Source: Centroberyx gerrardi
Taxonomy: Eukaryota > Chordata > Actinopteri > Beryciformes > Berycidae
Length of the DNA: 64,000 nucleotides
Reading direction: 5' to 3'
Assembly: GCF_048128805.1 (NCBI RefSeq)
Contig: NC_136016.1
Coordinates: 21,003,176-21,067,175 of the forward strand
A program made the position numbers and the translations under genes. Numbering within the stretch: position 1 is the stretch's first letter; every line of letters starts with the position of its first letter. The notes under the pieces were generated by a model that made no database searches, was not told the origin of the DNA, and saw only the letters and a program-made list of their open reading frames with translations. Below, piece by piece: positions 19,801-56,600 of this stretch.

Positions 19801-20679
19801 CGGTTTTGTTACTTTAACACCACAGTGATTCAACCTATATCCAGTTCATGAAAGCTTTTCCATTTGCTGTTTTAAACACCCGGTGTCTGGTAGATCTTTC
19901 CTGGGAAAAATCCTCTGCCAGACAGGTTTTTTTTATGTTTCCAGTTTGTTAAGAATAAATAGAAGAAGCAGCCACCATGGCTGAACAGACAAAGAAAAGA
20001 GTGCCACTTACAGAAACTCAAACTTCATCAACAGAAAATCTAAGCTCCACCCACACTGTTTGATTGACAGGTGATCTATGAAAAGTGCAGTGCAGAAACA
20101 CCACACCAATGAGCGCTTAGCACCAAAGATGGAGACAAAATAAAAAATAAAAAAGCACAAATCTCGCAGATTACCACTTTAAGAAAACAGAAAGCAGGAC
20201 AAAGGGTGGGTGAGAGTGTGTGAGAGAGAAAGGGGTAGGTAAAGTAAAAAATAAAGAAGAAAAGTGGGACGGTGAGGCGCACACACACACACACACACAC
20301 ACACAGTCCCCGCTCACCTCTGGTAGATCTCCTGCAGCGTGTCCCTGCTGAAGGCCGTCCCGTCCTGGAAGACGTTATTGAGCGCGTGCAGGGCGCACAG
20401 CTCCCTCCGCTGCTTCTCGTGATAGATGGCCGGAGGAGTCGGACTGGGCTGGGGGGGCGCCGGGGGGGTGAGGGAGGAGGAGGAGGACGAGAGATCCTGC
20501 TGCTGCTGCTGCTGAGAGTCCCTGGGTTCCCTGCACCTCCTCTCTTCCGTTCCCACCACCACCACCTCTCCTCCTCCTCCTTTCTGCTTGCTGACCTTCC
20601 ATGGCATGCAGCCCAGCTCCTGCAGGCCGCCTCGCCCCTTCCCCTTCCACTCGCCGGCTGAATACGGAGCGCTTCCCAT
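16829..20679 (-). CDS. josd1: Josephin domain deubiquitinase
   Basis: Coding exons (minus): 20318-20679, 19616-19744, 18002-18196, 16829-16931. They are in frame, giving 262 aa from the first ATG or 238 aa from an internal ATG at 20605-20607; human JOSD1 is about 202 aa. The Josephin domain starts at [18 protein letters not shown]. It carries the catalytic Cys (ELCALHA), the His in [11 protein letters not shown] and the Asn/Asp in YYNLDSK. The C-terminus (KNCELLLVV, then EVEAHQTWR) matches JOSD1 rather than JOSD2. Known role: a cysteine protease of ubiquitin chains, linked to membranes. The N-terminus is odd, with extra Gly/Arg-rich, Gln (about 6) and Ser runs before the domain. The internal start MPWKVSKQK aligns with the human VPWKGDKAK region. 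The upstream ATG has a good context, so both remain possible. Confidence 0.93.
17100..17665. mobile_element. Foldback MITE, copy 1
   Basis: The left end reads 'gtcaactttaagtgatgagaacataaac'. The right end carries the complement of 'gatgagaacataga'. A near-identical core (for example 'gcatacaccatgttgagtg') recurs at 61253-61990. It lies in the last intron of josd1 and encodes no protein. Confidence 0.75.
18505..18765 (-). repeat. Dispersed repeat B, copy 2
   Basis: This is the reverse-complement match to the copies at 7344-7640 and 19831-20175, sharing for example the complements of 'agccaccatg' and 'ggaataaacagaagaag'. It lies in a josd1 intron. Confidence 0.65.
19140..19440. repeat. Dispersed repeat D, copy 1
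   Basis: This shares 'catcaccaacatta', 'agatgtgacgaaatattcc' and 'aaaggaga' in order with 37770-37990, where 'agatgtaacaaaatatccc' is seen. No open frame. Confidence 0.55.
19831..20175 (+). repeat. Dispersed repeat B, copy 3
   Basis: Same family as 7344-7640 and 18505-18765. It lies in josd1 intron 2, only about 90 bases from exon 3. Its tail 'atctcgcagattaccac' resembles 'atctcgcagaatactcc' in copy 1. Confidence 0.65.
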
Positions 20680-21784
20680 CCCTGGACGTTCACCACCACC
20701 ACCACCACCACCTCTACCACCACCACCACCACCGCTACCTTCGCAACGCTACATCGGCATCATGACGACCGTCGCCATGGCAACCTCTCAGCCGCTTGGA
20801 AGAGAGGAGCTCTTGGGTGAGGAGGAAGGGGTGGGGGAGAAGAGTGGCGGTTACAAGGTAAATGAGACCTCTGCCTGTTTAACGCAGCAACACCTGCTCT
20901 TTCAAAAGGGGACGAGAGTGGTGAGAAAAGGTCAAGGGGCGGCGAAAAACGTGGGGACAAAAACTGGGACTCAAGGAGGGGGATGAACAGCACACAAAGA
21001 TACTCCAGGTGCGGCCAGATAAAAGACAACCGCTACAGCAGCATGATCAACAAGACCACCCCCCCCAAAAAAAAACTAGAGGACAAGACGACTGTGGCTC
21101 TCTATGTTTTCCACTTCCTCCATCCTCTCTCTGTGCGTGTGAGTGTGTGTGTGTTGACGACTCTTTCCATCCAGTCAACCCAGCCTATAGCTTTGCAGTT
21201 CTTTCCATTGCTAGGCCGCCGACCATGAAGCGTTACTTCCACTGGAACAGATGCAATGGGGATTTGATGCTGAGTGGACAGGGACGCCTGGAAAACAGCT
21301 GAGAGGAAGAAAGAAAGAAAGAAAGAAAGAGGGAGGAAGAGAGACAGAAACACATTTTAAAGAAATGCTGTTGTTGTTGTTGATGTCAGTGTCTGCAGTG
21401 ATAGCTGTAGGTAAGATAAGACTGTGCTGCTACAATCTCTTCTTGGTCAGCAGGCACTGAAGTGAAAAAGGTAAACATTTCCAGCAGCTTGGACTGGCTA
21501 GAGAGGAAGCAGGCTGTTTGGTAGCTAGGAAAACAGACAACAACCCGGACAAAACACACAATTCCGCCTTACGTTTACACTCCATTGAGGATACCCACTC
21601 TTATATACTCTTAAGCCATACCTGTATCGAGGCAATTTACACGATAGTAACCGAAATCAGCCGTTAAGTCTTGCTCGCTGCCCTACGTGACTCCCGTCTG
21701 ATAACACACACACACACACACATACACACAGACACAACGGCTCCTTACGCCGTTTAACTTCATTTTCCGTCACCGTACACTTAC

Positions 21785-22467: not shown

Positions 22468-22894
22468 GACAACTTAATTGAAGCTCCACTGAAGTTGGTA
22501 CAACCACCAAACACAGCGAGTTAGCCCCTGTAATTCCATCTCAGCCTTCTAATAAACTATTGAAGTTAAAGGAGCCATCTATTTACAACTCCAAAATGTC
22601 TATCAAATTTCTTAACAGCTCATCCAGCAAAATCCAAGAGTTTTGTTCCCAAACGATTGCAATGTGGGTCCAAAAGTCCAATATTTACCTCATTATCTCA
22701 TGCCCTGCAGAAAATATAGAAGATAACGAGGTAAATATTGGACTTTTGGACCCAGAGTGCAATTATTTGGCTACAAAACACTTGGATTTTGCTGCATGAG
22801 CTGTTTGAAGAAATCTGATTGACATTTTATGCTTTTTTTGGAGCTATAGTAAAAAGATGGTTCTGTTAACTTCAAGAGTTTGTAGGAGGAGATG

Positions 22895-23046: not shown

Positions 23047-24265
23047 TTCTCTTTTCGTCAGAGGTCAGAGGTCAGCTCTCCTGCAGTGTTGCTCAAAGAC
23101 ACTTCAGCAGAGCGGCTGATCCCCAACACAGGGTTTGAACCTGGGTCCTCCAGTTGAAAAATGGCCTCTCTAACCACTAGGCCACCCTGCCTCTCTAATA
23201 CATTTTCAGAAAAGCATAAATTAACATTAGATGGATGCTATTTAGCGTGATGTATCGTATACATTTATGTCATTAAGGTTTATGTCTGTCTAAAAATGTG
23301 TGTAACCTCTGTCCTGCAAATAAAAAGCTTAGTAAATTGAGTTTAGGACTCGTATTTGCGAAAATGGGTCGATTTTAAAGGAACCCAATTACAGTTTGAC
23401 AGATATATCAGTTTGTCGAAATTGGCCTTTTATTAAATATCAGATATCAGCCAGTCAATGTCGTCCGCCTCCGATATGATGGAGGTTTTTCCCCGATCAC
23501 AGCTACAGAAAACAGTCTGTAAAACCGCAATCAAATTTGATCTGGTTCATTTATGTTATTTTATTGTTTAGTTATATTTTCTTTTGAATTAATTCTTCAT
23601 TTAAAGGCCCAATATATCCCAGAGTTTCTCTACCACTGAATAGGCGCCGTCGGTCTCCCTATCTTAAAGAGGTGCTACCACTAGAAGAATTTCATCAGTC
23701 TGGGTTTCAGTGGAGAGTTTTAGTGTCCCACGATGGTCTAAATGCTGTTTCAGAGGCTTTTCCACACTGAAGAACATTCTGGGGAAAAAACACTGAATAC
23801 ATTGCTGAACCCGATCGGTTGAACTCTAGTCCCAATATGACTTCAGTTTATTTTCACGGATAATCTTTAAAATTTGATACCTCTTATAAATTATGAAAGA
23901 TGGAAGAGGGCCAGGCGCTGGAGCAGAGCGAGAAACCCGGATGAAAAACATGATGAAAAGAGAAATGTCGAGGTATTAAAAACATGTCAAAATAGGAAAA
24001 CAAACTGTAAGTGACCAAGATAGCAAACCAAAAGCATCTCCGGCATGTTGGGACCAGATTGCAGGCAGCGATAGTAAATTCATGTGGACAGTGGCAAACC
24101 CACAGAGTGACAAAAATACCTCAGGCAAAGAATCACCCTTGCACTTGCACTCAAAATTGCATGTTTAACACTTGAATGAATCCCGCCTCTTTCTCTCTCC
24201 ACGGCCCCTGCATCTCTTCCACACACACACACACACACACACACACTGTCACCCTCCTCGTCCAT
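23047..24265. repeat. Repeat-rich spacer downstream of the GIMAP-like gene
   Basis: A reversed tRNA-like SINE piece sits near 23075-23195: the complement of 'gggtggcctagtggttagag' together with a 'ggttcaaaccctg' B-box-like motif. Copy 2 of the dispersed repeat seen at 3690-4660 occupies 23390-23830. A (CA)n run is at 24220-24247. The rest shows no gene. It probably includes the 3'UTR of the GTPase gene, with minus-strand AATAAA candidates near 23426 and 23566, but the end is unresolved. Confidence 0.5.
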
Positions 24266-25633
24266 TTACATGTGTCCCAGTTTTCTAGCCAGAGCAGAGG
24301 CCATGTCATCCAGCAGCTCCTCCTCCCTCCTCTGCAGCTCGTGGACGAACTGCCCCCTCAGCGCCCTCAGCTCCGCCACCCGCCCCACCAGCCGCCTGCG
24401 CGTCGCCCTCCGCGCCTCCGGGGGGCAGCGCGGGCCGGTGTCCACCAGCTCCGCCCTCTGGCCGCACAGAGACAGAGCCGCTTTGAGACCGCCGGCGTCC
24501 GCGTCCAGCAGCTGCTCCAGAGTTCGCCTCGGACCCAGGCGGTCTGCGTGGGTGAGCACCGGGATGACGTGCCCCGTGACTTCGCCCCCAAACAGCTCCA
24601 TGGCGGTTCGCATCGCCTGAGCGACATCCTGGTCCATACCCGTGCTGGAGCCCGGCGCCCGGAGCACCAGCAGGAAGGCGTGGGGTCCGGGGCTGGCGAG
24701 CTGGAGGCTCCTCAGCGCCTCCCGGGCTCTCTGACTGTCTCCGAGCGACGAGCCCAGCAGGTCCGGGGTGTCGACCACCGTCACCTCTCGACCGTCCACC
24801 GCCGCCGTCCGCCGCCTGCTGCGCTCCATCAGGGGACCTGTGGGTGCCCCGGTCAAAGTATCCGCCAGGGAGGTCCGTCCCCCTCCAGCAGGTCCCAGGA
24901 GGATCAACCTCAGGTCTGGTTCCCTGAGACCGCTGAGGCCGGAGAGGTCGGGGGTCAGGGTCAGGGTGCTGCTGCTGGTCCGATCCGTCTCCGTCTCCAG
25001 TTGTCTGTCTCCGGACGGTCCTGCAGAGGTGACACACAGGTTCTGAGTAGATAAATAATAAACTACTTTGCAGGGCTGCAGTCAAGACCGCATAAGTCAA
25101 GTCTGAGTGAAGACCAGGTCTAGTCAAATTCGATTGAAGACCGAGACCGGAGCAAATCAAGTCCTATTCCAGACCAAGACCAAGCAAGTCAACATGTCCT
25201 CCCCTGTGGATGATGCAGGAACCAATCAGGAACAAGATGCATCATCCCTTCAAGTTTCATCAAAGTCTGACTGCTACAGCAGAACTAGTAGGGACGGGAC
25301 GATATATCAAAATTCAATATATCGCAATACAAAAATGTGACAATACATATCGTGGGGCCGAAAAATCGTGATATTAGCAACATTTTATTCTGCTGTAGTA
25401 ATCACAAATGAGACAGCTTGACCATCACAATATTGTAATGACATTTTTAAATTGTTGTTTAAGACAACGCCATCGCTAGAAAGATTTGTGGCTCAGAAAT
25501 AAACAGAATTCTTTACAGTCAGACTTGTATTGGATCGTGAACCCCTTATCGGGTATCAAATTCAGACTCACTTCTGCCGTGTGTGAAGACGGACTCCAGG
25601 CGTCGTTTGGCTCGACTGGGGAATCCTGACAGG

Positions 25634-25693
<60 letters not shown>

Positions 25694-28600
25694 GTTCGGG
25701 TTAAAGCTGGACATAAAGCCAAGAAACAGCAGAAAAAGCAGAAAATGTAGGAGAGGGCAAATTAAGGCAAAACGTACCTACGATGTTTTTGATGACAACA
25801 AGCAGCCAGCTGAACTTGGAGAATAATGCTGATGGAGGAACAGAGTGGAAATCAGTTGGTTTAAAGCCCCTGGAAAGACGATTCTGTGATTGCCTTGTAA
25901 ATATGCAATTTGTGGTCTTGTGTGCATATATAATGTGTTTAAAAAATATGAAAATTCAATTAGATTCCAATCTTTAAATAAATCAATAAAGCTGTTTAGC
26001 TCTTTTCCTGACTTGCTCACCGACGATAAACCGCCAAACTCGAGACAGCCATTTAAACAAGCTCTGTATTCCTGAAACACAAGAAACCAGCATCAGTCTT
26101 TTACTTATTATACAATATACAACACATTTTTGTTTAATTGTTCTGGTTTTATGTTGTACCGCGCAGAGTTCCCACCAGGCGGCTCACCCAGCTCCACAGA
26201 GCCGACAGACCTGAGGCACAAACAACAGAGACAAAATGTTAAAATAACATCCAGCTGACTTTAGTTCGAAAAAATAAATATCACGATAACTAGTTGGAAT
26301 TTTTTCGATATCGATAAATATCTGCTTGTTTAGGTATGGAGAAATCACATGCTAAATAATCCAGTTGATGTTCATCATATCGACTTGTATGGTAATTGAA
26401 AGTATTATACAGTATTAAACTGAAACTGCAATTTTCATGACATACTCAGTGTTTTTTAGAAACGATTTTGAGAAATTTGGCCTGATGTTTGCTTTATATC
26501 TTTCATTTAAACAAAACTGTACGTCACAATTCACGATATCAGTTAAAGTTCACGGTACGATTACATGAAAAAACAGTAAATGAAAATAATAAACTTGATT
26601 TAATATCAATATATTGTCCAAGCCTAATTTTAGTTTACATCATATCCAAAGATGACAGTCAGTGGTGCGAGGTTTACAATATTATTCTTATATTTCCATC
26701 TATCTTGCTGATGGCAATGATTTGTAGTTTTGTGTTCTGTCAGGTCAAACCACTTCTAAAGCTGAGTGACACCGAGTGACCTCTGACCTCTGACCCTGAC
26801 TGAACCCACCAGTTAGAGAGCAGAAGAGCCGAATCGGCCATCGGATCAGAGCGGGGAGCGCTGCAGGGGAACAAGACTCAGTGTCAGCATCAGATTCACT
26901 GTGATGAAGATAAAACCACCCAGAAAGTGTCTGGACTAAAATGCCTTTCGTGATCCCAAAGTGTACGTTTATAAATATTTGAATCTTTTATTTCACACTG
27001 CTCTGGTTTTGAGACAGGGTTTGGTTGAAATCTACAAAACTGCAAATAAACAGATCTCTCTCAAAAATATGATGCAGCAGCTGCTGTGTGTTATCTGAGA
27101 CAAACCGGAAGAAGCAGGAATACAATTTGGTGAGTTTTTCCTGTGCAGACAGAAACAAATTCTTTCCTCCCTAGACAGATTTTGAACAGAGGAATACTGG
27201 TGAAAGTTCAGATATAACAGCTGATTATCACAATCATTTCAATTAGGGATGTGTCTGATAATTGATCAGTGAATGAATGTGTGGAGGTGTGTTTGAGTTG
27301 TGGACGGGCAGACACACACTACCAGTCAAAAGTTTGGACACACCACATTTTTCTTTATTTCTACTATTTTTCGCATTTTAGAATAATAGTAAAGACTATG
27401 AAACTGTGAAATAACACAAATGGAATTATGCAGTGACCAAAAAAGTGTTAAACAAATCAAAACTATCTTATATTTTAGATTCTTTAAAGTAGCCGCCCTT
27501 TGCCTTGATGGAAAGGCAAAAGGCTTTGGAAAGAAATTCATACACAGGATCAACTTCACTATTTATATTTGTCTAAGAAACTAATTTCAAGCATTTAAGC
27601 AGAAGCCTTTAGATCAAAATGGCTTTAAGAGAATGAAAAACACAGAACATTCAATCAGGTGGGTCCAAACTTTTGACTGGTAGTGTGTTTACAGAATGTT
27701 TGTCATGACTGGAATAATCTTGTGTAGTCAGACCTGTGTGTAAAACAAACGGAGGCGTGGAGAAACTCAAGCAGCAATAGTTGGTTAGAAAAGGCGGAGC
27801 GTCTGTGGGCTGTCGTCATGTTTCAAACCCCTTAGAACCAATAAAAAAAAAAGCCTGGCACTGCTGCTCACCTGTGTGTTGTCCTACTTTTACCGTAGTC
27901 TGTTGGTAAACACGCCATTACATCCCTGTTTTGGAGCCAAGAAGCTGTAAAGACTTCATCGACTCAATTTGATGTTGAGAGCAAACTTCTGACAAAACAG
28001 AAGTCTTAAGTCGAAGTTTCCATCCATTTTTACTAAAAAAGGAAAACATTTTCTACCCAGACGGAAAAACAAACCAGAGGTGCCGTTTCGGGGGGCGTGT
28101 CGTGTGTTTTCAAACTCAGAGCCAATCAAATGTCTGCCTCCGGCTCCGCAAGGTCTCATTATCTAACATTTTCTGATGAGAAGTTCTCCAGACCTCTGTG
28201 AGTTTGAGACGGAGGTCTAGCTAGGCAAGATTATAGCTGGAATAATGGTGATGTGGGGAGGAGAAAAAAGTGGAGGGGGACCCAGAGTCACCCTTCTGTG
28301 TAGGACCCATAATTCCTAGCTGCACCCCTGGTAATGCCATCCAAACTTAGCTATGTGTCTGATTCAAGTTAATTTACCCTGTTCTACAGTTTCTCTACTG
28401 TTTCTTTTCTCAGGCCCATCAGTCAGAGAAACAATATGGCTGATATGTAAGTGGATTTTTCTGTAGCATTTTTACTAATCAAAGTGAAGTTGTGTGTCGT
28501 TGGATGACTGACTGACTCTGTGAGAATCTGTAGAGAAGATACCCCGCCACAGTGAAAGCTCCCATCTGGACGCTGCTGCTGTTCAGCCACAAGTCTGAGC

Positions 28601-29477
28601 ACAGAGGGGAGGGAGGGAGGGAAGCATGACATTAATCAGTATAGCAATGTTGTTTACAGCCTATCATGGGATTTACCTTTCACCCAAATGTGAACTATGG
28701 GAATAAATACTCCAAATCCCAGGAAGTATCCCTATGTGTGTCGACTGTTCAGACTGGGCATATCCAGGAATGTATTCAAAGTTAAAGCTGCATTTTTTTA
28801 ACCTTTATGGAAGTAAACCTGGATGTTACAATCTCAACCCAGTAGCAGTTAGAGCAGTTGTCCTGAGTAAGGTAATGGGCTTTTTGTGTTCATAGTGGGA
28901 GATTTTACACATCTTAAAAAATGACAGTTTGCAGTAGCTGCTATCAGTGAAAACAGTCAGAAAATAGTTTAAAAAGTCAGAAAATAGAAAAAAAAAACAG
29001 CTTGAAAACATGTTGTTTACAATTTTTTGTAATTGTATTTATTTATGAGCTAAATTTAACACAACTTCCTAAATTAGTCAGCTTTGAAACACATCAAGTA
29101 CTTGTTTAACATAGCTTTTATTTTGAAATAGCCAGACCGGAAGTTAAGAAGATTCGTCTGCTACCTTTACTGTAACTAACCGTAAACGAAAGCAACAAGT
29201 GTGGCAAAGAACTACTACAGCACAGGTATAATAGATTTTAGGAAGATACTATACGAATATCACAGCAAAACTGAATATTACAGGAACTATAGTGATACCA
29301 TAGGAGATTAAAAAAGACCGTAACGGTTTATAAGTCAATATAAACTCACTGACAATTTATAAGTCCCTTAAGTAATATTACAGTTATTGATTTGGTGATT
29401 TTTGGGTTCGTCTCACCTGTAACAGCATCGTCCATCGAGGCTCCACAGTCTCTCTCCGGTTTGCAGTTACACTCCAT
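24266..29477 (-). CDS. GIMAP/AIG1-like GTPase with repeated mini-exon N-terminus
   Basis: Coding exons (minus): 29417-29477, 26810-26860, 26160-26210, 26021-26071, 25778-25828, 25572-25625, 24266-25020. All joins are in the same phase and give 357 aa. Residues 1-20 are a Cys-containing leader (MECNCKPERDC). Residues about 21-106 are five modules of 17-18 residues, one per exon, rich in Trp/Phe/Leu with Arg/Lys, such as LSALWSWVSRLVGTLR. Residues about 145-357 are a GIMAP-like G domain: P-loop GPAGGGRTS (149-157), VVDTPDLLG (DTP at 190-192), the FLLVLRAPG and VIPVLTHAD blocks, and a C-terminal Arg/Glu-rich helix. GIMAP proteins are membrane-associated GTPases of immune cells. Here the P-loop Lys is Arg, so nucleotide binding is uncertain. 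No ATG precedes the G domain within its own exon, which supports the upstream exons. Family call is fairly sure; orthology is unknown. Confidence 0.72.
25572..26860 (-). other. Array of five phase-matched mini-exons (51, 51, 51, 51, 54 nt)
   Basis: Exons 26810-26860, 26160-26210, 26021-26071, 25778-25828 and 25572-25625 each begin with two bases and end with one base of a split codon. Any of them can therefore be skipped without a frameshift. Their peptides (LPALIRWPIRLFCSLT, LSALWSWVSRLVGTLR, IQSLFKWLSRVWRFIV, LFSKFSWLLVVIKNIV, FPSRAKRRLESVFTHGR) share spacing of hydrophobic and basic residues and a Gly/Ala/Arg at the junctions. Each has a pyrimidine-AG acceptor and a GT donor. Confidence 0.7.
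25637..25691. repeat. (AG)n microsatellite beside a mini-exon
   Basis: A run of about 27 AG dinucleotides lies 11 bases upstream (minus-strand sense) of the 25572-25625 exon. On the minus strand it is CT-rich and acts as an extended pyrimidine tract for the acceptor. Confidence 0.9.
27316..27688. mobile_element. Tc1/mariner-like remnant without transposase
   Basis: Inverted termini CACTACCAGTCAAAAGTTTG and the complement of TCCAAACTTTTGACTGGTAG bound about 370 bases. The interior includes 'tagccgccctttgccttgatg', a stretch common in internally deleted fish Tc1-type elements. No open reading frame survives. Confidence 0.75.
27715..28245. mobile_element. Inserted element with short inverted ends
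   Basis: The left end reads 'ataatcttgtgtagtcagacc'; the right end is its imperfect complement 'ggtctagctaggcaagattat'. The direct repeat 'ctggaataat' occurs on both sides, suggesting a target duplication. No coding capacity. The class is not certain. Confidence 0.45.
28543..28594 (-). pseudogene. 52-nt exon-like copy that breaks the frame
   Basis: An excellent acceptor (a long CCCTCC tract then CAG) precedes 52 bases that, read after exon 1, encode LWLNSSSVQMGAFTVA. The only fitting donor (GTATCT) leaves it one base too long to join the next mini-exon. Joining exon 1 directly to 26810-26860 keeps the frame. This is either a decayed module of the mini-exon array, a poison exon or a sequencing error. 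Confidence 0.4.
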
Positions 29478-29600
29478 GTTACCTCTGCACGTACATTACA
29501 GTGCAGTCGTGTTAGTGTTAGTGTCAAAACAGTGTCAAGCTAGCCGGAATAGAACACTATCACTTCCGCTCTTGTCTTTCAAAATAAAAGGTGACGAACG
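29478..29600 (-). promoter_or_regulatory. 5' leader and promoter region of the GIMAP-like gene
   Basis: The ATG at 29475-29477 is preceded (minus sense) by GCAGAGGTAAC. The region upstream is unremarkable: no CpG island, no clear TATA. The start site cannot be placed. Confidence 0.3.
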
Positions 29601-30369
29601 GGTTCCAACATTGTTCAGACTTTTAGAACGTGGCAAAGTGAAAATAAAGAATATATTTATGGAGGAATCTGTTGAGAATTAAAACACATCTTGTTTCCCA
29701 AGACGTCCTTTTCACAACATATGTCCAGTAAATCTAGGCCTATGCAAAGATCCATTTTTGTACAGGACTGCCAAAAAAAGCATGTAACAACACATATACC
29801 CCACAACTACCTTGAAAAAGTCAATTTTAAGATAAAATGGACAGTCAAGTCAGCCAGAATAAGTCACTGTAGAAAAACCCTGTGTTTTCTATATAGACTT
29901 TCAAACAAAACCTATACCAGACAACTTAACAGGAAATCAACTACCTTTAAAAAGTCTTTTCTAACCCATAGCAGTGGCACAACTGTTCCTAAAGCTGCAT
30001 TACCTGGTGTGTAGTCAGCCAGAAAAAGCTCCCACTGAAATGCCATACACTGTAGACTAGACTGTCAAAACCTGACGCAGCTGAACACGTGGTGCGGCTG
30101 CAGGCGTCACCTCCCTCCCTCCAGTCATGTAGAACAGCACTTACCTGCACAGGCCTGCCCTCCACATGCACACAGCTCTTATTTTATTGTGCTGCATGGG
30201 GATACAATGCAGTGGAAGGCCCAGGTATGCTCACAATGCTATGGTTTTACTTTGGGGGGGAGACGCCCTTTTTTCTTAATCGGACAGGAAGAACTGGAAA
30301 CGCTGCATGAGACGCACACCGACTGACGCACAGGCATCGACAAATAATACAAGATAGAAGCAGTTAGAG

Positions 30370-31027
30370 TTAAAAAAATCTTTCTTTTTTTATTACAAAG
30401 GCAAGATTTGAGGGGGGAAGGCAAAAAAATCAACAAGTGTCATTCTCGGTTACAGCATTATTCTGAACATGTGCATATATTCTCATCTATTCCAGTACAT
30501 TAAGACTTTTTATAATCTTGTCACCCACATTAACCAGTTTGAGAGCTTGTTTTAGACAGACTGATACCTCCTCACTGACACCGAAAGCATTTACAAAAAA
30601 ACCCCAACTTATTTACATTCATTTATTATTGATAGAACTGGTTACCATGGCACCCTAACTGCTAAACCATGCTTAGGGTGTATGGTTCAGGGCCGAATGC
30701 ATCAAGCAGAGCAGGAAACTTTTTTTTTTTGTGGCTGGTACATCCCAAATTTCATCGGCCATGTTGACCATTTCACCAGCCAGCTAAGGAAGGAATATTG
30801 ATATTTAAAAGACAAACAAGACCTCCAAATGATGGTTAGTTACCTGCCACAGTAGCTGGTAAACATACATCAACTATATCCAAAATTTACCAGCACCTGG
30901 CTAGTGGAAGGTGTCTGCAGGTAATTTCCAAACCTGAATCAAGTCTTAGGATAAACAGTGCGGATCTGAAACCAGTTTGCCCGTTGAACAAGTCAAAGCG
31001 AGGCTCGTATCTCCTCTCCTCCTCTCC
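30370..31027 (-). other. xrcc6: xrcc6 3'UTR
   Basis: From the TGA at 31028-31030 down to a minus-strand AATAAA at 30389-30394. No repeats of note and no coding exon. The stretch 29600-30370 beyond it shows no gene. Confidence 0.6.
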
Positions 31028-34000
31028 TCACTTGGCCAGCTGGGCGATCAGAGCGTCTATCAGTTCCTGTTTCTTGGTCCCGGTGGTCCGAACCCCAAAC
31101 TGCTTACAGGCCTCCTTCAGCACCGGCACCGTCAGCTTTCCCAGGGTGCCGTTCTGCACGTGGGCCCTCAGCTCGTCTTCTTGCAGCTCCACTTTGGGTT
31201 TCTTCTCGGCTCCGCCTCCGGCATCGGCTGAAAGTTCATTAGGTGGAGAAAAACGCAGTCAAAATAGGATTCTAAGTTGAAAACCCACTTTTGGGCTGGA
31301 AAGTGAGTTTTGAACACCAGAAATCTCAGTACCTGTCCAAGTAAACGCTGAGTCATTAGTATTGATTAACAATCTTATCAACCTCACAGATATACTATGT
31401 CATTTTGTGCTATGAGGCAGGAAAAATCGGACTTATTGCACCTTAGATAAAAACAAAAACGACTGCGGTCAATTGAAAAAAGTGACTTTGCTCCCGGCTC
31501 TGACCTGTTTTGCGTTTGGCGGCTGGTTTGGCCTCTGGGTTGTAGCCGGCGGGGTAGACCAGGTCTTTAAACTCCTGGACCAGCGGACCCAGACGCTGGT
31601 CCATCTGATGAACCTTCGGCACTGAGACAGAGGAAGAAGAGGGAGAGGACAGAGACCGTGAGAGAGAGAGAAACAGGCAGCTGTGTACCAGCCACAGGTG
31701 AAACTCCAAGTCTTTTGAATGTGTGTTTGTTTGCTTCTTACTAATTAAGTCCTCGATGGACTCTGGAGCCATCATGTCCAGAGCCAAGGCCTCCAGGTTC
31801 CTGTAGTGCTGCTGGATGACTGGGTTCTCGAAAGCATCACTCCTGCAACCACACACACATAAAGGCTCCGTTCACACTGCAGTTCATATCTCAGTTTTGT
31901 TTTTGGATGACTGTTCATATCTATTCTAGGATGCAACTCATCTCCGATACCAATATGAACTGACAGCCATGCTGAAAAGACACATAAGCAGAGTAACAAT
32001 AACAAAAGTGAAAAATGTTTTTCCTCCTTAACGCTTGTTTTCAACTACGGCCACAACTAACAATTACTGTTATTAGCGATTATCAATATATTTTTTCAAC
32101 GAATCGATTAATCATTCATAAAATGTCAAAAATAATGACAAATGCCCATCACAAGTTACCAGAGCCTTATTTAGTCTGACCAGCAGCCAAAAAAACCCAA
32201 GTATTAATTTTATGATATGAAATGGAGAAAAGCAGCAAATGTTTGGTATTTTTACTTGATAAATGACTAAAACGATTTAGCGTCTATAAAAAAAGGCTAT
32301 CAAACAGCTTTCCTTCTACGAATATACTGCAGCCTCTTGCATTTTAGAAATTCCAATAGTTGATATTGTGATTTTGATATTTTATTGATTACCTGTATTT
32401 GAAGCGCAGCTTGGAGACGATCTCCTTCATCTTGTCCACCTGCATGTCGGAGGCTGTGGGACACTGGGGGACGTCCAGCCTCCGGATGTCGTCGGCGAAC
32501 GGCAGGAAGATCACATTGAAACCTGGTGCAGGAAAGTGTTCAGAAGTCAACAGGGAAAGAGTGATACACACATCCAATTCTGTCACTGGTACTGGACAAT
32601 AATTAAGATAAATCCATATAGAAATAGGTCCACATATTCAAACATGCGTGCAGTAAAAAGATGGACTTCTACAATGTCTTCCCATCCCAGTGTTGTACCT
32701 GGTGGTGTGACCTGGTTTTGCCCCTGGTCCGCCTCCTCCCTCTGGGGCACCAGGGCTACGAATCGAGGCGGGTAGTTTCGGCGAGGGACGTAGCGACACA
32801 CGGCGAAAACGTTCTTCTCACTGCACTTCCTCAACAGGGCGGTGAACACACACGCACTGCCTGGGGCGGGGGGAGGGGGGGGGACACAGGATATAAAGCT
32901 CAGTGGGTAGAGCATGGCGCTAACACAGCCAGGGTTAAGGGTTCAATTCCTTGTGTTGCTCAATAGGTAGAGCAAGGCACTAATCCTGCCAGGATTAAGG
33001 GTTCAATTCCCACTGGGACAACCCATGCTAAAAATGTACAAGAATACAAGAAAAATAGCCTGTAAAACCTGCAATGAAATTTGAGGTTGTTTTTTTTTTT
33101 TTATATTCAGGTGATTGTTTTGTATTGTTGAGTTTCCCTGCCACTGAATAGGTGTGCTGGAGAGTTTTAGTGTCCCATGACGGTCTAAATGCTGTTTCAG
33201 AGGCTTTTACACCCCGGCAACAATAAAAATCTGGAGGCAAACACTAAACACTTGCCATTTTTGGCATGAAGAAGATCAAATATAAAGACAAAATATTGGC
33301 CATTGGCGACTTTAGTCTTAAGTTTATTGGCCTTCAAAATCCATATCAGTCAAACCAGAGTGGACTCACCACTTTAAAAAACTTTCAAAAAATAATGGTC
33401 ATGTGAGGCGTGATGGGTGGGAAAATGACATGCTGATACTTGCAATTGGCTCAATTATAATGAAATTAAAGATGCAGCTTGATTTATAAATCAGAAGAAT
33501 AACTTTTCAGGAGGCTTAAACACCTTTCCCTCCCTTTTCAACAAGTTCAACCTCTTGCAATTTTGAAATATCAGTAGTCAATACTGTGATTTTATTATTT
33601 TTTAAACTGCTTGTGCAGCTTTAAATCACACACGCTCCTACCTGTCACCTGGTCTTCCTCAGGATAGACGAAGACGGAGGGACGGATGTGATGATGCAGT
33701 TTGAGTTTCTCCATCGGTTTGAATCCAATCAGAAAGATTCCAGGATCCTCAAACTTCTTGATGGCATCCACCTCGTCCCTCTCCATCACTATCTGTCTCT
33801 TACCATAAACCTACAGCAAACAGGCACAGGGTGCAGAAAGCATTGCGTTGTAATGGTGACAGAGTACCAGCAATATGAATATCACTAATGAGCCTCTATG
33901 CTATATACTGTATATCGAAGTGGGAAATTAACACCAACCACCAAATGCTGGTGCAATTTTTGCTGTGGCTACATTTGTCTACCAAACAAGTCATTCTGGT

Positions 34001-37000
34001 TGGTGACTAACATCATTAGAGGACCTGTTTTATTATAATAAATAAATATGGTTTGTAAAATAGTGAAGGTTGTGGCTGTAGACAAGTTGGCTTCCTTCTC
34101 TTGAGCCAGTTTGTTTTAACTAATACATTTTTGTTCTCAGTACTGCAAGTGTTGCTGGAATTTACTTTTTTCCAATGTTAACCTGCCCATGCCATCCATC
34201 TTGCTAGTGGGTCAAGTGCTTTTTCATCTTGTGCCATAGACACAAATGAAACATGACTAAAGGAGTATATTTATAAATTTGGCACTTAGCGGGTGGTAAT
34301 TTCTAGGGCAGGCCCCAACTATTTGTTAAGCTGACATTCAAACCAAAATTTAGGATTTGAATATTTCACCAAGGAGGATGTATGGGAATTCTTTGTAAGC
34401 TCCAATATCTCCTACTTGGTGTCATGAATGGCATGATGGCAGCAAATTGAAGCAAATCCACCAATGTTGGCAGTCCGAGGTAATTGAAATAAAAATAATT
34501 ACTTATTTACAGACTGATAGAAAATGACGTGAAAGCAGCTACAGTAGCTAGTCCTTAGGGAAGCAAAGTCTTCAAGGCTTTTTCTACAAAGCAGAATAGT
34601 GCGAGTATCCTTACCTGGGCTTTCTTGATCTCGCTGGGCAGCAGCAGGCTGCCGGTCTGAGTGTGGAAGGTGCGAGTCTTGCTGCGGACCGGCTCGTTGG
34701 TTTCCCTGTACAGCCGGACGGCAGATGGTTTCCGGGCCGTCACCGCGTTCCCATAAATTCCCACCGCCACTTTCATCCCCTCGCCCAGACACAGAGACAC
34801 CCTGGGAGGAGGGGAGAGGGGGAAGGATGGTTGGAAGGAAGGGGAAAGGAGAGGAGGAGGGGTCAAGTGAATGGAAAGAAGGTAAAGAGAAAGGAAGGGA
34901 GCTGACTGAACATCTACCACAGTGTGAACTCTGGAATCCTTGAAAAGCACAAGAAACCAAAATAACTTTTCTGTGTCTGAAGAATGAAATGTGTGACTCT
35001 CATCTCTACCTAGACATGGCTCTCTTCTTCTGCTCCTTGGCCCTGACCCTCTTCTGGAGGTCCTCCAGTTTCCCACAAGGCTCCAGCTGCAGCCCCAGCT
35101 CCGTCTCGTCCTCCGGTGGACTGACGGCGTCGCAGAAGAAGAGCGAGACGTCGAAGCCGCCTGGTTTCATCATGTGCATCAAATCGATGACCACGCCTAC
35201 GAGAGAAGGGACTGGTCAAACATTGCTTCAGGCTAAATATTTCATATTATCATTTAAAGCTGCAATAGGTAAAAATTCACCTGTACTGTCAGTCTAAATC
35301 ATAAAGTGGGGCTGCAACAGAGAAAAGCGTCCCATTCCCACTAAATCAGACCTTGTAGATTCGCCCTATTTGCCCAAATTAAATTCTGGAGTTGAGTCCC
35401 GACACTGGAGGGAAATCTTCTCCACCCACAGGAGGTGATGCATTGAAACTTTAGAGCAAAATCCAAACTGTCTCCTAAACAGCAGCAGAGAAAGCTGGAC
35501 TCGCCAACGTTAGATCTTTTCCTCTCTCATCTCCTTGGTTTCCTTTGGTATAAAGCATCACAGACCGGCCGGTTGGTAAATATGAGTGTGCCGTGTGACT
35601 TTCCTGCCATCACTGCACAGGATTTCTGGGTACTGAAGTTACATTTTTCAAAGAGTTACCTCCTGCTGGCATTTGGAGCTGCCAAAACGCAAAGTCGCCT
35701 AGTGAAACCTTAATTCACAATCCTCCTCCTAGACCAAGAAGGGATATTAGAGGCATCATGAGAGCCAAGCTGCCTTCAAACCCACCCGTCTCTTTGAGGT
35801 CTCCGGCCTTGGTGCGCGCCTGCCGGTCCTTTGCGCTGTCGCCCTCGTGTGGCTGGTCCCTGCAGGTGAAGATCATGAGGCGCTTGTGTGACAGGCGTAG
35901 CTTGATGTCGCTGTAGAGGTTGGAGCAGCACCACAGCGCATCGCCCAGCGACGTCTCCCCGCTGCCCATGGTCTCTGCTGCCAGCTGGGCGCCCTTCGTC
36001 CCCCGCAGGGCCTCCACGTCCTGCACCCGCTTTGCACCTGGGGGCAAAGGAGGGGAAAGATGGAGGGATGGAAGAAGGGAGACAAAAAGATGGAAGAGAG
36101 TTATATTAGGTCATAAAAACCTTATTCAGGAGGAAAGAAACAACAAATCATAGTATGATCTAGGGGTTCTCAAACATTTTCATGTCACCAACCCTGAAAT
36201 AGACACACATTAGGCCACGGACCCCCATGTGGTAAGATTTTGTCCCAGTGACCCATATGGGAAGCACTGAATTGTATATCTGTCTACACTGTACATGGAG
36301 AGATAACAGTGGTGAGAGTGAAACTTATCATTAGAATAGTCATTTTCATACAATCTCCAATTGGGATAATTTACAGTGAATTAAATGATAGTGAATTTAG
36401 ACTATTCTGTATTTTGCGGGCCACCTGAAACCCCTTAAGGACCCCTGGAGGTCGTCGGACCCCATTTTGAGAACCTGCAGAGTCGTACCAGGCTCATCGA
36501 GGTCGTGGTAGACGTAGACGTGTTTGAAGGAGTTCCTGGGGTTCTTGCTCTGCTCTGTGCCGTAGAAAACCAGAGCCACCAGATCCCTGTGGCTGCTGAT
36601 GATCTTGCTGGTGTAAACACTGCGTACGCACTGCAAGGAGAGGACAGACAGACATCTACCATCACAAGACTGAATAAATGAAGGACGGTAAATCTGAGTT
36701 TAGTAAAAATGGTGAATTAAATAATCATATGATACTGATATAGCTATGCGTGAGCGATTTTTACTTCAGGGTTCCTACACAGATTAAATTTAAAAACTGC
36801 ATATCTTTTCCTAGACCATAATTCCTTGATTTGGATTGAAGATTTTGGTGTTCAGTTTTACACAGACAGTTGTCTTTTCCCTACTAACTCTGCTGTATCA
36901 CTGTATGAAGATTATTCTTCACAACGTCAAATATCAGAATATGTGAGATAACAGGGGTCTAAAACCACAGAAAATGTGTAGTAGTATGTATATTAGGACA

Positions 37001-38157
37001 GAATAACAATATTTTGTCCATACTTTTCCAATTGTTTTCTGTAATTCCCAAATTTCTTGAGACAAAATTCCTTTTCCATAAATTTCCATTTTCTCCACAC
37101 CTGTACAGGAAGTGGACAGGTACGGAAAACAGAGGACAGGCAGTAAACAACGAAGACAAAGTGAAAGAGAGAACCGGCCATCTTACCTGCATGGTCATGT
37201 CAAAGTTTGAAGGCTCTCCATCTTCTCCTTTGATGAACATTTCCTTGGAAGCGTCAACCAAGAAGACCAAACTATCTCTCCCCGTCACCTTGTATTCTCC
37301 TGACGAAGAAACAAAGGACAAGAATGAAAACATAATTTGGCGTGCTGTATCACTAAGTGTAGACAGTATGGGCAAACCTAATCCTATGAAATTATTCTGA
37401 TACCAATATAGAATGATATCTGCTAACATATGCTAAATTGCATGTTAAATAATAATGTGCATCGCATTTAACTGCATGGTAATATATGATAAAACTCTAA
37501 TTTTCAAATAATATTCCCTAATTTGTTTCAGATCTCATTTTGTGAGATTTGAATTAATCTCACATTAATTCATTGATTTAGACAACAGAATTGTGTATCA
37601 CAATAACTCAAAATCATACTTCATCACAATATTATTCTATTGAAAGGCGATAGTATTGAATTATTGCTCAGCCCTAAGTAACACCTATAGAGCATATTTA
37701 CTTCATTAATCTTGATTAGACTACATGCTGCCTGCAATCTGTATAGCAAAGTCTATCACAGTCCAACAATATTTACATTTGGCTGATTAGATGACGTTCT
37801 AGCGACTTACAATGCGTGCAACACTAGAATAAGTTTCAAAAATCCTCCATCACCAACATTATAAGCAACCAACAGTAAGGAGGTACAGCATTAGATGTAA
37901 CAAAATATCCCTGTGAGCCAAGAATGATAAAGTATGACGGTGAAATGCGAGGCATAAAATGAGAGCTAAGGAGAAAAGGTAGAAAGGATTAAATGATCAA
38001 AAGGCAGAGTGATTGTTGATAATTGACAGAATCCTCTCAATAGTAAATGCATTATTGGCACATGATTATGCAGTTTCTTCCCACCTCCTGATTCCTCTCC
38101 TTCCTCATGCTCTTCATCCTCATCCTCATTCTTGTAGAAGGCCCTCCACTCTGCCAT
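31028..38157 (-). CDS. xrcc6: Ku70, DNA end-binding subunit (XRCC6)
   Basis: Twelve coding exons (minus): 38085-38157, 37187-37299, 36489-36630, 35786-36037, 35010-35196, 34615-34801, 33642-33810, 32699-32860, 32393-32522, 31742-31842, 31505-31621, 31028-31227. They join in frame throughout to 610 aa; human has 609. Start [16 protein letters not shown] has the usual acidic N-terminus. The vWA-like domain begins at [12 protein letters not shown]. The Ku core includes [10 protein letters not shown] and [21 protein letters not shown] is followed by FVALVPQ. The C-terminal SAP domain reads [15 protein letters not shown]. Known role: with Ku80 it encircles DNA ends in non-homologous end joining. 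A basic KRK segment precedes SAP, fitting a nuclear signal. The gene looks intact. Confidence 0.97.
32897..33020 (+). mobile_element. tRNA-like SINE head present twice in tandem
   Basis: Two consecutive units about 60 bases apart each carry an A-box-like 'ctcagtgggtagagca' (second: 'ctcaataggtagagca') and a B-box-like 'gggttcaattcc'. This is a dimeric tRNA-derived SINE or a local duplication, in an xrcc6 intron. It is not a functional tRNA gene, because no cloverleaf with paired acceptor ends was recognised. Confidence 0.6.
33045..33360. repeat. Dispersed repeat, copy 3 (xrcc6 intron)
   Basis: Same family as 3690-4660 and 23390-23830: 'cctgtaaaacctgcaat', 'ccactgaataggtg', 'gagagttttagtgtcccatg' and 'tctaaatgctgtttcagagg' occur in order. 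Confidence 0.6.
34300..34485. repeat. Dispersed repeat E, copy 1
   Basis: 'gggaattctttgtaagctcc', 'acttggtgtcatgaat' and 'gcagcaaattgaagcaaatcc' match a second copy at about 54945-55080 with small changes. xrcc6 intron. Confidence 0.5.
35255..35690. repeat. Dispersed repeat F, copy 1
   Basis: 'gcacaggatttctgggtact' and 'aaattaaattctgg' recur in reverse complement at 51000-51255 ('agtacccag'-type complement 'aatacccagaaatcctgtgc'). xrcc6 intron. Confidence 0.55.
37770..37990. repeat. Dispersed repeat D, copy 2
   Basis: Matches 19140-19440 in block order; lies in xrcc6 intron 1 next to an inverted-repeat relative at 37370-37680. Confidence 0.5.
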
Positions 38158-40367: not shown

Positions 40368-42367
40368 ATAGGGTGGCACCCAGCTGGGGCAGCCAAACTC
40401 CATAGTGGACCTAGGCAACACTGAGGTGACAGAGGAGATCTTTATGGAGTACCTGTCTTCGCTAGGAGAGTCCACGTACAGGTAAAGGCTAAGTCACACT
40501 AGACTATTTCAGTACAGTTGCTGATAGGTCGGCGCAGGTTATCCTGTAGTGTGAACAGGCTCAACACTGCAGACTCTGAGTCTTTCACCCCACAAGATTT
40601 TTTCCAACATGTTTGATCTAGTTGGTCCAGTCTGGTTGGACTAGTGTGAAGCGGTCAAGGACTTGCCAAGACTGAAATCTGAGAGTTAAGCAGGCAGCAG
40701 CCAATGGGAGTTTAGTTCAAGGAGGAAGAAAAAGAGAATTAACCAGAAGAGACGTCACTTATAATAACAACAGCTCCCACTCACTTACATCAGTAGAGAT
40801 TCCCAACTCCACTCTTGATAAGTTGCTATACAATTTTTAATATGGAGGAATACATCTCATGTAAAATGGCATAAAATGACAAGATGCCTGTGAATGAAGT
40901 TTCACACAAAATTCTTCATCAGTGTTATCTTGTGATGATGTCACTTAAATGCATTTGTAACGTAAATGAAAACTGTAGCTTCTCTCCCATGGAGAAAGAA
41001 ACAATTGAACACCTATTTTGCAATTGCATTTTTACAGTGAATTATTCTGGTAGTGTGTGATCCCTTGTCTTCATGTGTGTGATGCGTGTCTTTGACCCCT
41101 TGCCTTGTTTGAACAGCTTCCCAATCGTTTAGTCTGAACTACCCTTGTTTGAAAAAACAGTCTTGCAGTCTGACAAACGGAGTCATACTTTGTTCCACTT
41201 TATCTCCCTGTCGAAATCTTCTCTGTCACTATCTTGTCTTTTCCTGCTACTCACCCGCCCTTCTCCACCCTGTCTCACTTCTCATATTTTCTCTGAATTT
41301 CTTTATCTTTTACTTTTTCTCCTCCTCTCTCTGTATTTGCTTTATCTCTCTCTCTCTCTCTCTCTCTTGGTACACAGAAACGATAGGTACCACCTGTTTG
41401 AGCACAACTGCAACACCTTCACCAATGAGGTGGCTCAGTTCCTCACAGGCACCAAGATCCCCGCGTACATCACCGACCTTCCGTCTGAAATTCTATCCAC
41501 GTGAGTCAACTCTGTTCAATAAGCATCATGAGGCCGTTCTTACACTGCCGAAGCTCTTGGTCTCTCTGTCTCATTCTGTCTTTGTGTTTCCCTTTGTCTC
41601 TGTCAATACTAGTGTTGCCATGATACCAGAATTGTTACTTCAATACCAATACTAAATTTAAAGGAATAGTTCACCCAAAAATTCAGTCATTATCTACTCA
41701 CCCCCATGCCAGTAGAAAATCGGGTAAAGTTTGTTAGTCCATACAACAGTCCCGGAGATCCCCGGAAGAAGTACATTGCAGCTTTCTCCAAAACAAATGA
41801 AGTTGCTGGAGACCTGTCTTCAGACTTCAAAAAATAACGGAAAATAACCATAAAATGGCTCCATGCAGCTCGTCCAGCATAACCCAAGTCTCCTGAAGCC
41901 AAACGATCCCAAAGTGACTTGAAAAGACATTTACACCATTATTTAGCTGAAATCTACTAGCTACTAATCTATGAGCTACTCTAGCTGTTATTTCAAAATA
42001 CGTCAGGTGTGGCGCACCCCGGCCTCAATAGGTGAGACTAGCTCGAATTACCAGAATCAAGACTTCTGGTTTGGCCGTTTTGCCTTCAAAATAAAAGTGT
42101 GAGATTTGAAAATAGGTAGAAATACTGTTTTAAACCAATTACTTTATATTAAATCATAAAATTCAATAAGTGAGCACCCATATTAATGTTTGATGTCCAC
42201 TTTAGTCTCCGTTCTGTATGTATTCAGCACAGTGTAATACATGCAGCGTTTATACTTAAAAATGACACATTTTATGGCATTTTTCATTATTATTGTGACA
42301 TCAAACAACAGCTGCCAACAGCTGAATTCAATCTTTCGCAATTGTATTGAAGAAGTATTGAAGTTTT

Positions 42368-53652: not shown

Positions 53653-56600
53653 TCAGACGGTCACCTCAGTCTTACTGTGGGTGGAGTAGCTCTTATGCCT
53701 GGTGTGGTGGTAGTAGGATGGGTGGGACGGGTGGTGCCCCTGGACGTGCTGCCCCGGCCCCGGCCCCATCCCCCCTCCCGCTCCTCCGTACGCCCCTCCG
53801 TAGGGCTGGTTAAAGAGATCGGTCATGTCCTCTATGCTCTGCTGCCTCCTGGTGGAGTAGCCGTGTCTCCGGCCGGAGCCGTGCATGGCGGCGGACGGGT
53901 GTCCCGGGGCGGAGGTCTGCCTCTGGACGTGGCGGCCGGTCGGCTCCCAGGCTTTGAAGGCCGAGCTGGAGAGCAGCGGGTGCGTGGTGGTCTTGGGGAG
54001 GCGGGCGTGCTCCAGGTGGCTGGCGGGGATGGAGATGGAGAGCGGGGCGTGGAGGTCGTGGTGCGCCGGCAGGGCCTGGTGGAGGTACGACTTCTCTTTG
54101 GGCTGCAGCGCCACGGGTTGGAAGGCAGGAGGCGCCACCGGCTGGTAGTGGGAGAAGTCCATCAGCGGGAAGCTCTTATAGTAGCTACGAGACGCACTGT
54201 CCGCTGGGAAGAGAGAGAGAGAGACATACTGTAGATAGATGTATGTGAAGCATGTGATGTACAAGCAACATAAACAACAAGTACCAATTAGGTCAGTAAT
54301 GCAAATGCATAATGCTATAATTGGCCACTTTCAACTTGTTTGTACTTTTGAGTCATTTTCTATTTGCCACGGTCTGATGCAGTTCTGAGTCACATAGAGA
54401 AGTCGCCTGGAATGAACTGTCAATGTGCAAACACAGTCTGTCATTGTGGGAACACTAACGCCTGAATCACACTTCATCCATGATGCACTGATGTTGCTGC
54501 AAACTATGTGCAGAGTTCATCACAAGGATCCACTGGCACACGAGTTAAAATGAAACTGATTAGGCATGATTATTGATTATAGAACCACGACATACATTTT
54601 CATTGCAACTTTTGTCTTTTGTCTGTCTAAAATACTTTAATCATGAAACATCACAGAAAAAAACGGGTTAGAGCAACATTCGGTTTAGTTTATGCATGCA
54701 TAACTAATGTATGAGTGGAATAAATTCAACGCATGGGCCGCTTGCATTGCAACTAAATGCATCTGCAGCAGAATGATGCAGAAATAAAAGATTCCCTCAT
54801 TTGAAAACCAACTTCCATCTGATATTACTGCATTCAATGCAGTGAATGTGTTCAAGGGGTTACGCCGAGTTCACGTCATATTGGATCTACGTTAAATACG
54901 AGCTGCTGTGAAAAAACATTAATGTCAGCCCCCTAATTAAAAGTAGGACATGTGGGAATATTTTGTAGGCTGCAATGTCTCTGACTTGGTGTTACAAATT
55001 GCTGAAGTGCGTCAACACAGGCGGCGAACATGGCAGCAAATCCATCAATGTCAGCTTCCTTTGCTCCTCGAGGTATTTCAGAAGAAGTTAATATCGGTTG
55101 GTTGTAAAATACTTGATGATAACAAGAAGGAGCGCTACAGCAATTGACCTTACGATCGCCATCTTGGATGTGGGCGCTCCAACGACTCACGTGAACATTT
55201 CCAATTTGTAGCAACAAGATGTCTTCCTGTTCCTCTGCTTCTTCTGATATGATGTGAGTCCGTCAGGGTGAAATCAGCTGAGACTTTAGAGCAGGTGTGA
55301 TAAACCCAACTTCACTATTAAGAGTTTAACTGAACGAAGCAAACCGAGGATCTTTGACCGTGTTTTTAAATGTAGTACAGGCTGCTAAACTTATTAATCA
55401 TCATTAAAACCTAACAAGCATGACAAATCAGTGGCTGTGTAGCCTGTATTGCACTCAATCAAGCAAAAATAATGATTTTTGGATTATGTATTTAACTTTT
55501 TTAACTAAGGAAGAATGATTCCATAAAGAGGGTTTGGGAGCGTGGGGAAGCGAGAGATGAGAAGGTAAAGAGGGACGACATCAACTACAACAAAGTGGAA
55601 AGGGAAGGTGAGGAGGAGAAGGAGGTGAGGAACGATTTGAATTTTGATTTGAAAGAGGACAAGATGGAAAACAGGACGGTGAGGTGGGGAAGGAGGACAA
55701 AAGGAGGACAAAGAAATAAAAGTATGTCTAGTAGTGAGAGGGGTGAGCAGGAATGTGATTAGAAGCACAAAACGCAGTAAAAAAACAGGACTTTTTTTTT
55801 TTTTTTTTGCTTGTCCACAAAACCAGAAACCCAGAAAAAAATTTGGAGGATGAGCGGAGAGATGGAGTCAGACGGAGGTGAAGGAAGGTCAGGATAAGAG
55901 GAAAGCGTTTGAAGAAGATCAAAGGGGAAGGCTGGTGATTTAAGTATTCCCAATAGGTGTCCGCCCTTAAGGAAAATACTACTGGTATTCCTCGCTCGCT
56001 GGGATACGGGAGGGTGGAGAGCGGGGAGGAGGAGGAGGAGGAGGAAGGGGGGAGGGGGGGGTGATGAAGAGGAGGAGGAAGAGGTGGGTGATGGGTGAAA
56101 CATGCAAAGGAGACGATGGAGGTAAAGGTATAGGAAGACATAGGAAGAGAGGTTTATAAATACCCTCGCCTGGAGTCCGGAGTGTGTGTGTGTGTGTGTG
56201 TGTGTGTCGCGGGCCTGCATGCACGTCGTAGAGAATCATCTGTAGCTCTAAATAGTGAGGTCATCGCCGCTAGCTTCCTGGCTACACGGTAACCTTGCCT
56301 GTGTGTGTGTGTGTGTGTGTTTGACTCACTGTGTGCATTGCTGTTAGGTGAACTTCTCTCTAAAAACATGAGGTTCCTCTTCTTGGGTTCTGCTAATTTC
56401 CAAAAGGAGCCAATATGCACGCTGCCATGTTTCACTTGAAGAAATGAAGAATCCCTAAAGGGTTCTAAGTAGGAACACACACCCGTTTATGAAGAGGTTC
56501 TTCAAGAAACTCCCCTGGGGTTCTCCGGTGGTTGCAATCTGACGAACCCTCAAAGCAGTGGTTCTCGGGACCTCCCAGGGGGTCGCAAGATAACTTTGGG

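Follow-up and report, generated by a model that had tools for sequence, protein, structure and literature searches.

A credible GIMAP-like gene of Centroberyx gerrardi that combines an unusual N-terminal arm with a degenerate G domain

Introduction

How a G domain of the AIG1 type comes to stand behind a row of very small exons, and what the protein arm encoded by these exons would do, is the question raised by the locus described here. To our knowledge, the function of most teleost GIMAPs is little known. Teleost GIMAP genes number up to nearly 190, as stated in excerpts of PMC9245644. An earlier note on this DNA had held that standard GIMAPs carry their membrane part after the G domain, and the C-terminal hydrophobic anchors of GIMAP1, GIMAP3 and GIMAP5 described in the extracts of PMC8201404 bear this out. 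Additions on the other side are found outside the vertebrates: in the available sections of PMC7053062, N-terminal death, kinase or ARM-type domains occur in snail AIG1 proteins, and 12 snail AIG1 genes encode one to three predicted membrane spans, located on either side of the AIG1 domain, while an N-terminal CARD is possible in lancelet AIG1 proteins (PMC12373286, in part).

Results

Gene model and exon layout

The window that we analysed, a stretch of 64,000 nucleotides of Centroberyx gerrardi DNA (contig NC_136016.1, positions 21,003,176 to 21,067,175), contains on the minus strand, at 24266-29477, a joined frame of 1074 nt, i.e. 357 codons and a stop codon. It consists of exon 1, four 51-nt exons (modules A-D), one 54-nt exon (exon E) and a 755-nt exon, in this order:

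29417-29477, minus strand: coding part of exon 1, 61 nt, residues 1-20 and one base
26810-26860, minus strand: module A exon, 51 nt, phase 1-1, residues 21-37
26160-26210, minus strand: module B exon, 51 nt, phase 1-1, residues 38-54
26021-26071, minus strand: module C exon, 51 nt, phase 1-1, residues 55-71
25778-25828, minus strand: module D exon, 51 nt, phase 1-1, residues 72-88
25572-25625, minus strand: exon E, 54 nt, phase 1-1, residues 89-106
24266-25020, minus strand: large last coding exon, AIG1/GIMAP-type G domain and C-terminal helix, through the stop codon

The predicted exons have AG and GT at every internal border and phase 1 at every junction. When scored with approximate vertebrate splice matrices, the donor of module B was the weakest among the exons (-2.3 bits). 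An AATAAA signal lies at 23852, about 0.4 kb beyond the stop codon.

The Met codon of exon 1 stands in a good start context, position -3 being A and position +4 being G, and is preceded by an in-frame stop seven codons upstream. Residues 1-20 are polar with several charges, and three Cys residues fall within the first 11. Exon 1 was the only upstream exon found with a Met. Translation starting inside the large exon was considered and ruled out for a complete G domain: the first Met of this exon falls 3' of the P-loop and the open frame immediately upstream of the exon contains none, so that a whole G domain needs an upstream coding exon. An upstream frame of five codons (29479-29496) stops one base short of the start codon, and an interferon-type promoter element, GAAANNGAAA, was absent from both strands at 29000-30500.

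Several further features were noticed in and near the introns. A perfect (AG)27 at 25637-25690 provides, on the minus strand, a long CT tract immediately 5' of the exon E acceptor; its length could differ among individuals and could affect exon E splicing. In the first intron, a 52-nt open segment bounded by AG and GT (28543-28594) has a good acceptor; it was rejected as a sixth mini-exon because its length would break the frame and its donor scored -0.8 bits. The long intron also carries, at 27312-27690, inverted ends (ctaccagtcaaaagtttggac and its complement) around approximately 0.3 kb, read by eye, and this element is like a non-autonomous DNA transposon. At 22660-22765 we noticed, again by eye, an inverted repeat with arms around aggtaaatattggacttttggaccc.

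The neighbours recognised in the window were as follows:

31040-31222, minus strand: SAP exon of XRCC6/Ku70 (Pfam E 3.7e-10), a gene that adjoins the GIMAP-like gene on the same strand
34555-35166 and 36959-37432, minus strand: Ku and Ku_N exon pieces of XRCC6/Ku70, below Pfam cut-offs
41133-41504, plus strand: piece of a DESI-type (PPPDE) peptidase
20314-20748, minus strand: Josephin piece, slightly under the Pfam cut-off

Two other open frames of the window that were tested gave no Pfam family. An open frame at 53653-54330, with no Pfam match at E 0.01, ends in EVTV, which we take to resemble the C-terminus of the Shisa family with its PDZ ligand.

The mini-exon run compared with chance

The number of mini-exons was compared with chance in two ways, both based on the approximate splice matrices. 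In the first test, the splice thresholds were derived from the five exons. The 4.4-kb intron span then held 5 candidates of 51 or 54 nt, as compared with 300 Markov shuffles that averaged 0.07 and never exceeded 1; the remainder of the window contained four more candidates, two per strand. Since these thresholds were post hoc, a second test was carried out with preset thresholds, in which phase was left free, as was length over 30-120 nt, with candidates grouped when they differed by no more than 3 nt. Here, five like-length, same-phase candidates were observed in the 5.2-kb gene span, as compared with 500 shuffles that averaged 1.30 and gave at most 3. Elsewhere, the highest count outside the gene was 3 per strand with the preset thresholds and 4, on the minus strand, with a laxer acceptor cut-off. 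An unrestricted scan of the minus strand reached 6 in a 5.2-kb span that starts from module B (26210) and extends past the gene, the six being B-E and two candidates downstream of the gene. The run of like-length exons of the same phase is thus beyond chance. The earlier note had proposed these five exons, their shared phase and their in-frame joining with the large exon into a 357-residue product, and all of this was recovered here.

Whichever of the five small exons are retained, the frame is kept in all 32 combinations, hence skipping, should it occur, could alter the length of the arm without a frameshift, as had been suggested.

Modules A-D form a repeat from which exon E stands apart

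The four 51-nt modules share a pattern at the protein level. Trp occupies position 8 in all of them, Gly or Ala position 1, Leu or Ile positions 2 and 16, and Arg is found at position 11 in three of the four. Their in-register BLOSUM62 sum was 118, in comparison to -83 +/- 23 for within-module shuffles, none of which reached it in 100,000 trials; out of 4,913 circular registers only one, the true register, attained this value. When each module in turn was left out and searched for with a profile of the other three over 127,880 positions, A ranked 19, B and C both ranked 4 and D ranked 7, ranks which count the three training modules among them. With the profile of A-D, no further AG/GT-bounded 51-nt phase-1 unit scored positive on either strand of the window. 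Viral contigs searched for relatives yielded 18 pattern matches, none of them confirmed.

Exon E, which had been counted earlier as a fifth module, behaved differently. Its in-register BLOSUM62 scores versus A, B, C and D were -5, -8, -13 and -11, respectively, and judging by these values it is better called a basic linker than a repeat module. Of the five modules put forward in the earlier note, four hence stood as repeats and the last did not.

At the DNA level, the exons of A-D are identical at 19-26 of 51 positions (uncorrected shuffle p <= 0.015 in all six pairs). The A-E pair, at 20/51 (p 0.025), is no lower than some pairs within A-D, and the other pairs with E are unremarkable. Over the six A-D pairs, matches were counted at 38/102 first, 54/102 second and 39/102 third codon positions. 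As the identity is low and third positions are no better matched than first positions, duplication, if it was the real origin, would be old. With such low identity among A-D and 20/51 between A and E, the DNA gives no proof of duplication, and convergence on an amphipathic sequence is possible. The protein pattern makes it likely that modules A-D originated as repeats; the proposal of exon duplication is supported to this extent, and does not extend to exon E.

The G domain and the C-terminal helix

The AIG1-type G domain that had been read in the large exon was found again by Pfam AIG1 (PF04548), which matched residues 144-331 with 77.9 bits against a curated cut-off of 27 (E 9e-22). Eight distinct PDB sequences, all named GIMAPs, matched at E <= 1.1e-9, among them the GIMAP4 structure 3lxx (E 8.7e-15). 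The motifs of a complete AIG1 domain (G1-G4, CB and G5/IAN) were taken from the list in an excerpt of PMC7053062, and the following sites were located:

24872-24895, minus strand: G1 P-loop, GPAGGGRT, residues 149-156, with Arg in place of Lys, departing from GxxxxGK[ST]
24665-24700, minus strand: conserved-box core, LASPGPHAFLLV, residues 214-225, matching the motif
24542-24553, minus strand: G4 site, THAD, residues 263-266, with Thr and Asp kept and Lys lost
24275-24421, minus strand: C-terminal helix spanning approximately residues 307-355, as predicted by single-sequence modelling of the large exon by itself

The change from Lys to Arg in the P-loop was judged against three printed chains that represent two proteins, GIMAP4 and GIMAP2. 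The DxPG form of G3 is absent; DTPD is present at residues 190-193, as in the alignment of GIMAP2. Likewise, there is no NKxD or TKxD, and THAD aligns with TRKD of GIMAP4 and THKE of GIMAP2. The conserved-box tail [FY]TxE[DE] had no match, nor did the IAN motif RxxxFNN[KR]A, even with F or L allowed, and NN occurs nowhere in the whole protein. The model of the large exon had a mean pLDDT of 52.2, with values of 86-95 over the last three blocks of ten, confident modelling being restricted to roughly the last 30 residues of the protein.

The AIG1 domain, the conserved-box core and, as modelled, a C-terminal helix are common to this protein and vertebrate GIMAPs (GIMAP2, GIMAP4, GIMAP5), whereas the P-loop Lys and the IAN motif of the latter are missing here. 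Judged by its motifs, the G domain is of AIG1/GIMAP type but degenerate, a point that the earlier note had not mentioned. From what is generally known of P-loops, nucleotide binding by this domain is probably weakened. A GIMAP-like gene that joins an unusual N-terminal arm to this degenerate G domain is credible.

Physical character of the N-terminal arm

The arm is strongly cationic: residues 21-106 carry a net charge of +13, and residues 21-88 lack Asp and Glu. The mean hydrophobic moment of modules A-D was 0.52, in comparison to 0.24 in shuffles, and the hydrophobic faces of all four modules fell within 59-112 degrees when taken in the module register. Individually, the moment was significant for B (p 0.006) and for C (p 0.002), which had the highest value, modest for A (p 0.02) and not significant for D (p 0.10). 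Module A, which contains two Pro residues, scored best at 180 degrees and not at 100. Over the whole array, the periodicity was strongest at 105 degrees per residue and weak at 100. The hydrophobic residues of an uninterrupted ideal alpha helix would not stay on one side, and we therefore assumed hinges between the modules, at their Gly or Ala starts.

Cationic N-terminal helices of this kind may anchor the protein to membranes, in line with the membrane-binding arm proposed in the earlier note. The Pfam Melittin family (PF01372) matched 12 residues at 16.8 bits, under its cut-off of 20.6, and a GGDEF_2 match was also under the cut-off; both were set aside.

Discussion

What would such an arm do on a degenerate GIMAP? 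The explanation that we regard as the best as a whole, and to which we give about an even chance of being right, is that of an old, duplication-built amphipathic membrane arm on a weakened GIMAP scaffold. The gene would be a real and expressed protein-coding gene of the AIG1/GIMAP kind, the N-terminal arm of which would have arisen when a single 51-nt phase-1 exon was duplicated in tandem long ago. The copies A-D would each form a 17-residue, cationic, Trp-containing amphipathic helix that starts with Gly or Ala, and the four helices would be bound in-plane to a negatively charged membrane and hold the protein there, with the basic exon E connecting them to the G domain. The G domain, with its key nucleotide-binding residues lost, would then chiefly be a scaffold that dimerises, or a weak switch.

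Alternatively, the modules may pair into two membrane-crossing segments, one at the A/B junction (residues 28-46) and the other at the C/D junction (residues 66-84), which together would make an N-terminal hairpin anchor. Octanol-scale sums of -9.35 and -11.11 for these two segments agree with this, as does the best Kyte-Doolittle 19-residue mean, 1.87 at residues 66-84, and by these two scales a crossing helix would be allowed at residues 66-84. However, both segments contain Lys or Arg, the register repeats by single 17-residue units and not by pairs, and on the biological scale (position-independent sums) the best windows of 17, 19, 21 and 23 residues within residues 1-124 all gave at least +2.6, which counts against a plain transmembrane helix. 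We consider the hairpin anchor unlikely. Since the biological-scale sums were positive in every best window, in-plane helices are tentatively preferred over crossing ones.

It is also conceivable, if rather improbable, that the modules serve protein-protein assembly as a helical bundle or coiled coil, with no direct role at the membrane. The period of 105 degrees is closer to that of a heptad coiled coil (103) than to that of a free helix (100), and among PDB entries the array matches antiparallel coiled coils of designed proteins (9r1o, E 9.6e-06), where no stretch passes alone. The PDB matches of the array, however, were two designed coiled coils and an antibody, and we treated them as compositional. 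In addition, the lack of any acidic residue in residues 21-88 leaves no salt-bridge pairing inside the array, and the Trp and cationic residues suit a membrane interface.

A bolder reading, which we find very doubtful, would have a pseudo-GTPase of the GIMAP kind bearing an exon-encoded array of antimicrobial-peptide-like helices, the number of which would be tuned by in-frame skipping to vary the strength of the protein's action or its target membrane, be it that of the cell's own organelles or of a microbe.

Finally, a decaying GIMAP pseudogene, or a gene with its true 5' exons elsewhere and the mini-exons as chance open segments, would fit the degenerate P-loop, G4 and IAN motifs, the weak donor of module B and the low DNA identity among modules, but is highly improbable given a frame fully open through seven exons, a like-length same-phase run not attained in any of 500 shuffles and the in-register similarity of the modules.

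Within the preferred explanation, that of the in-plane amphipathic arm, the protein can be set beside known systems. The anchor of GIMAP1, GIMAP3 and GIMAP5 is C-terminal (PMC8201404, in extract), whereas here the membrane-type part is N-terminal and comes from 51-nt repeat exons. Most snail AIG1 genes have the G domain in one exon, as here, according to sections of PMC7053062. In the excerpts of PMC7053062 and PMC12373286, snail and lancelet AIG1 proteins have additions N-terminal of the AIG1 domain, as in our protein, and coiled coils on either side of it, but a short repeat-exon array is not described in them. The nearest parallel that we found are the micro-exon genes of schistosomes, in which short symmetric exons are proposed to vary the protein by alternative splicing, and one of which, MEG-26, combines amphipathic helices with an internal duplication; unlike the present gene, they encode secreted proteins with signal peptides, have exons of 6-36 bp and lack a GTPase domain (PMC5825161, as excerpted). 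Septins have a related G domain, GIMAPs being named among paraseptins, and some of them have a membrane-binding amphipathic helix; they differ in being another family with no exon-encoded helix array, as far as the extracts of PMC11238149 go. In the open-licence literature, as represented by excerpts and among the matches listed, an N-terminal mini-exon array on a GIMAP was not described.

If true, a repetitive N-terminal membrane part assembled from successive exons in a GIMAP would offer a natural test of how GIMAPs choose their membranes, and also of whether splice choice can set their membrane affinity. The degenerate nucleotide site, in turn, would suggest that some GIMAPs act as scaffolds and not as switches.
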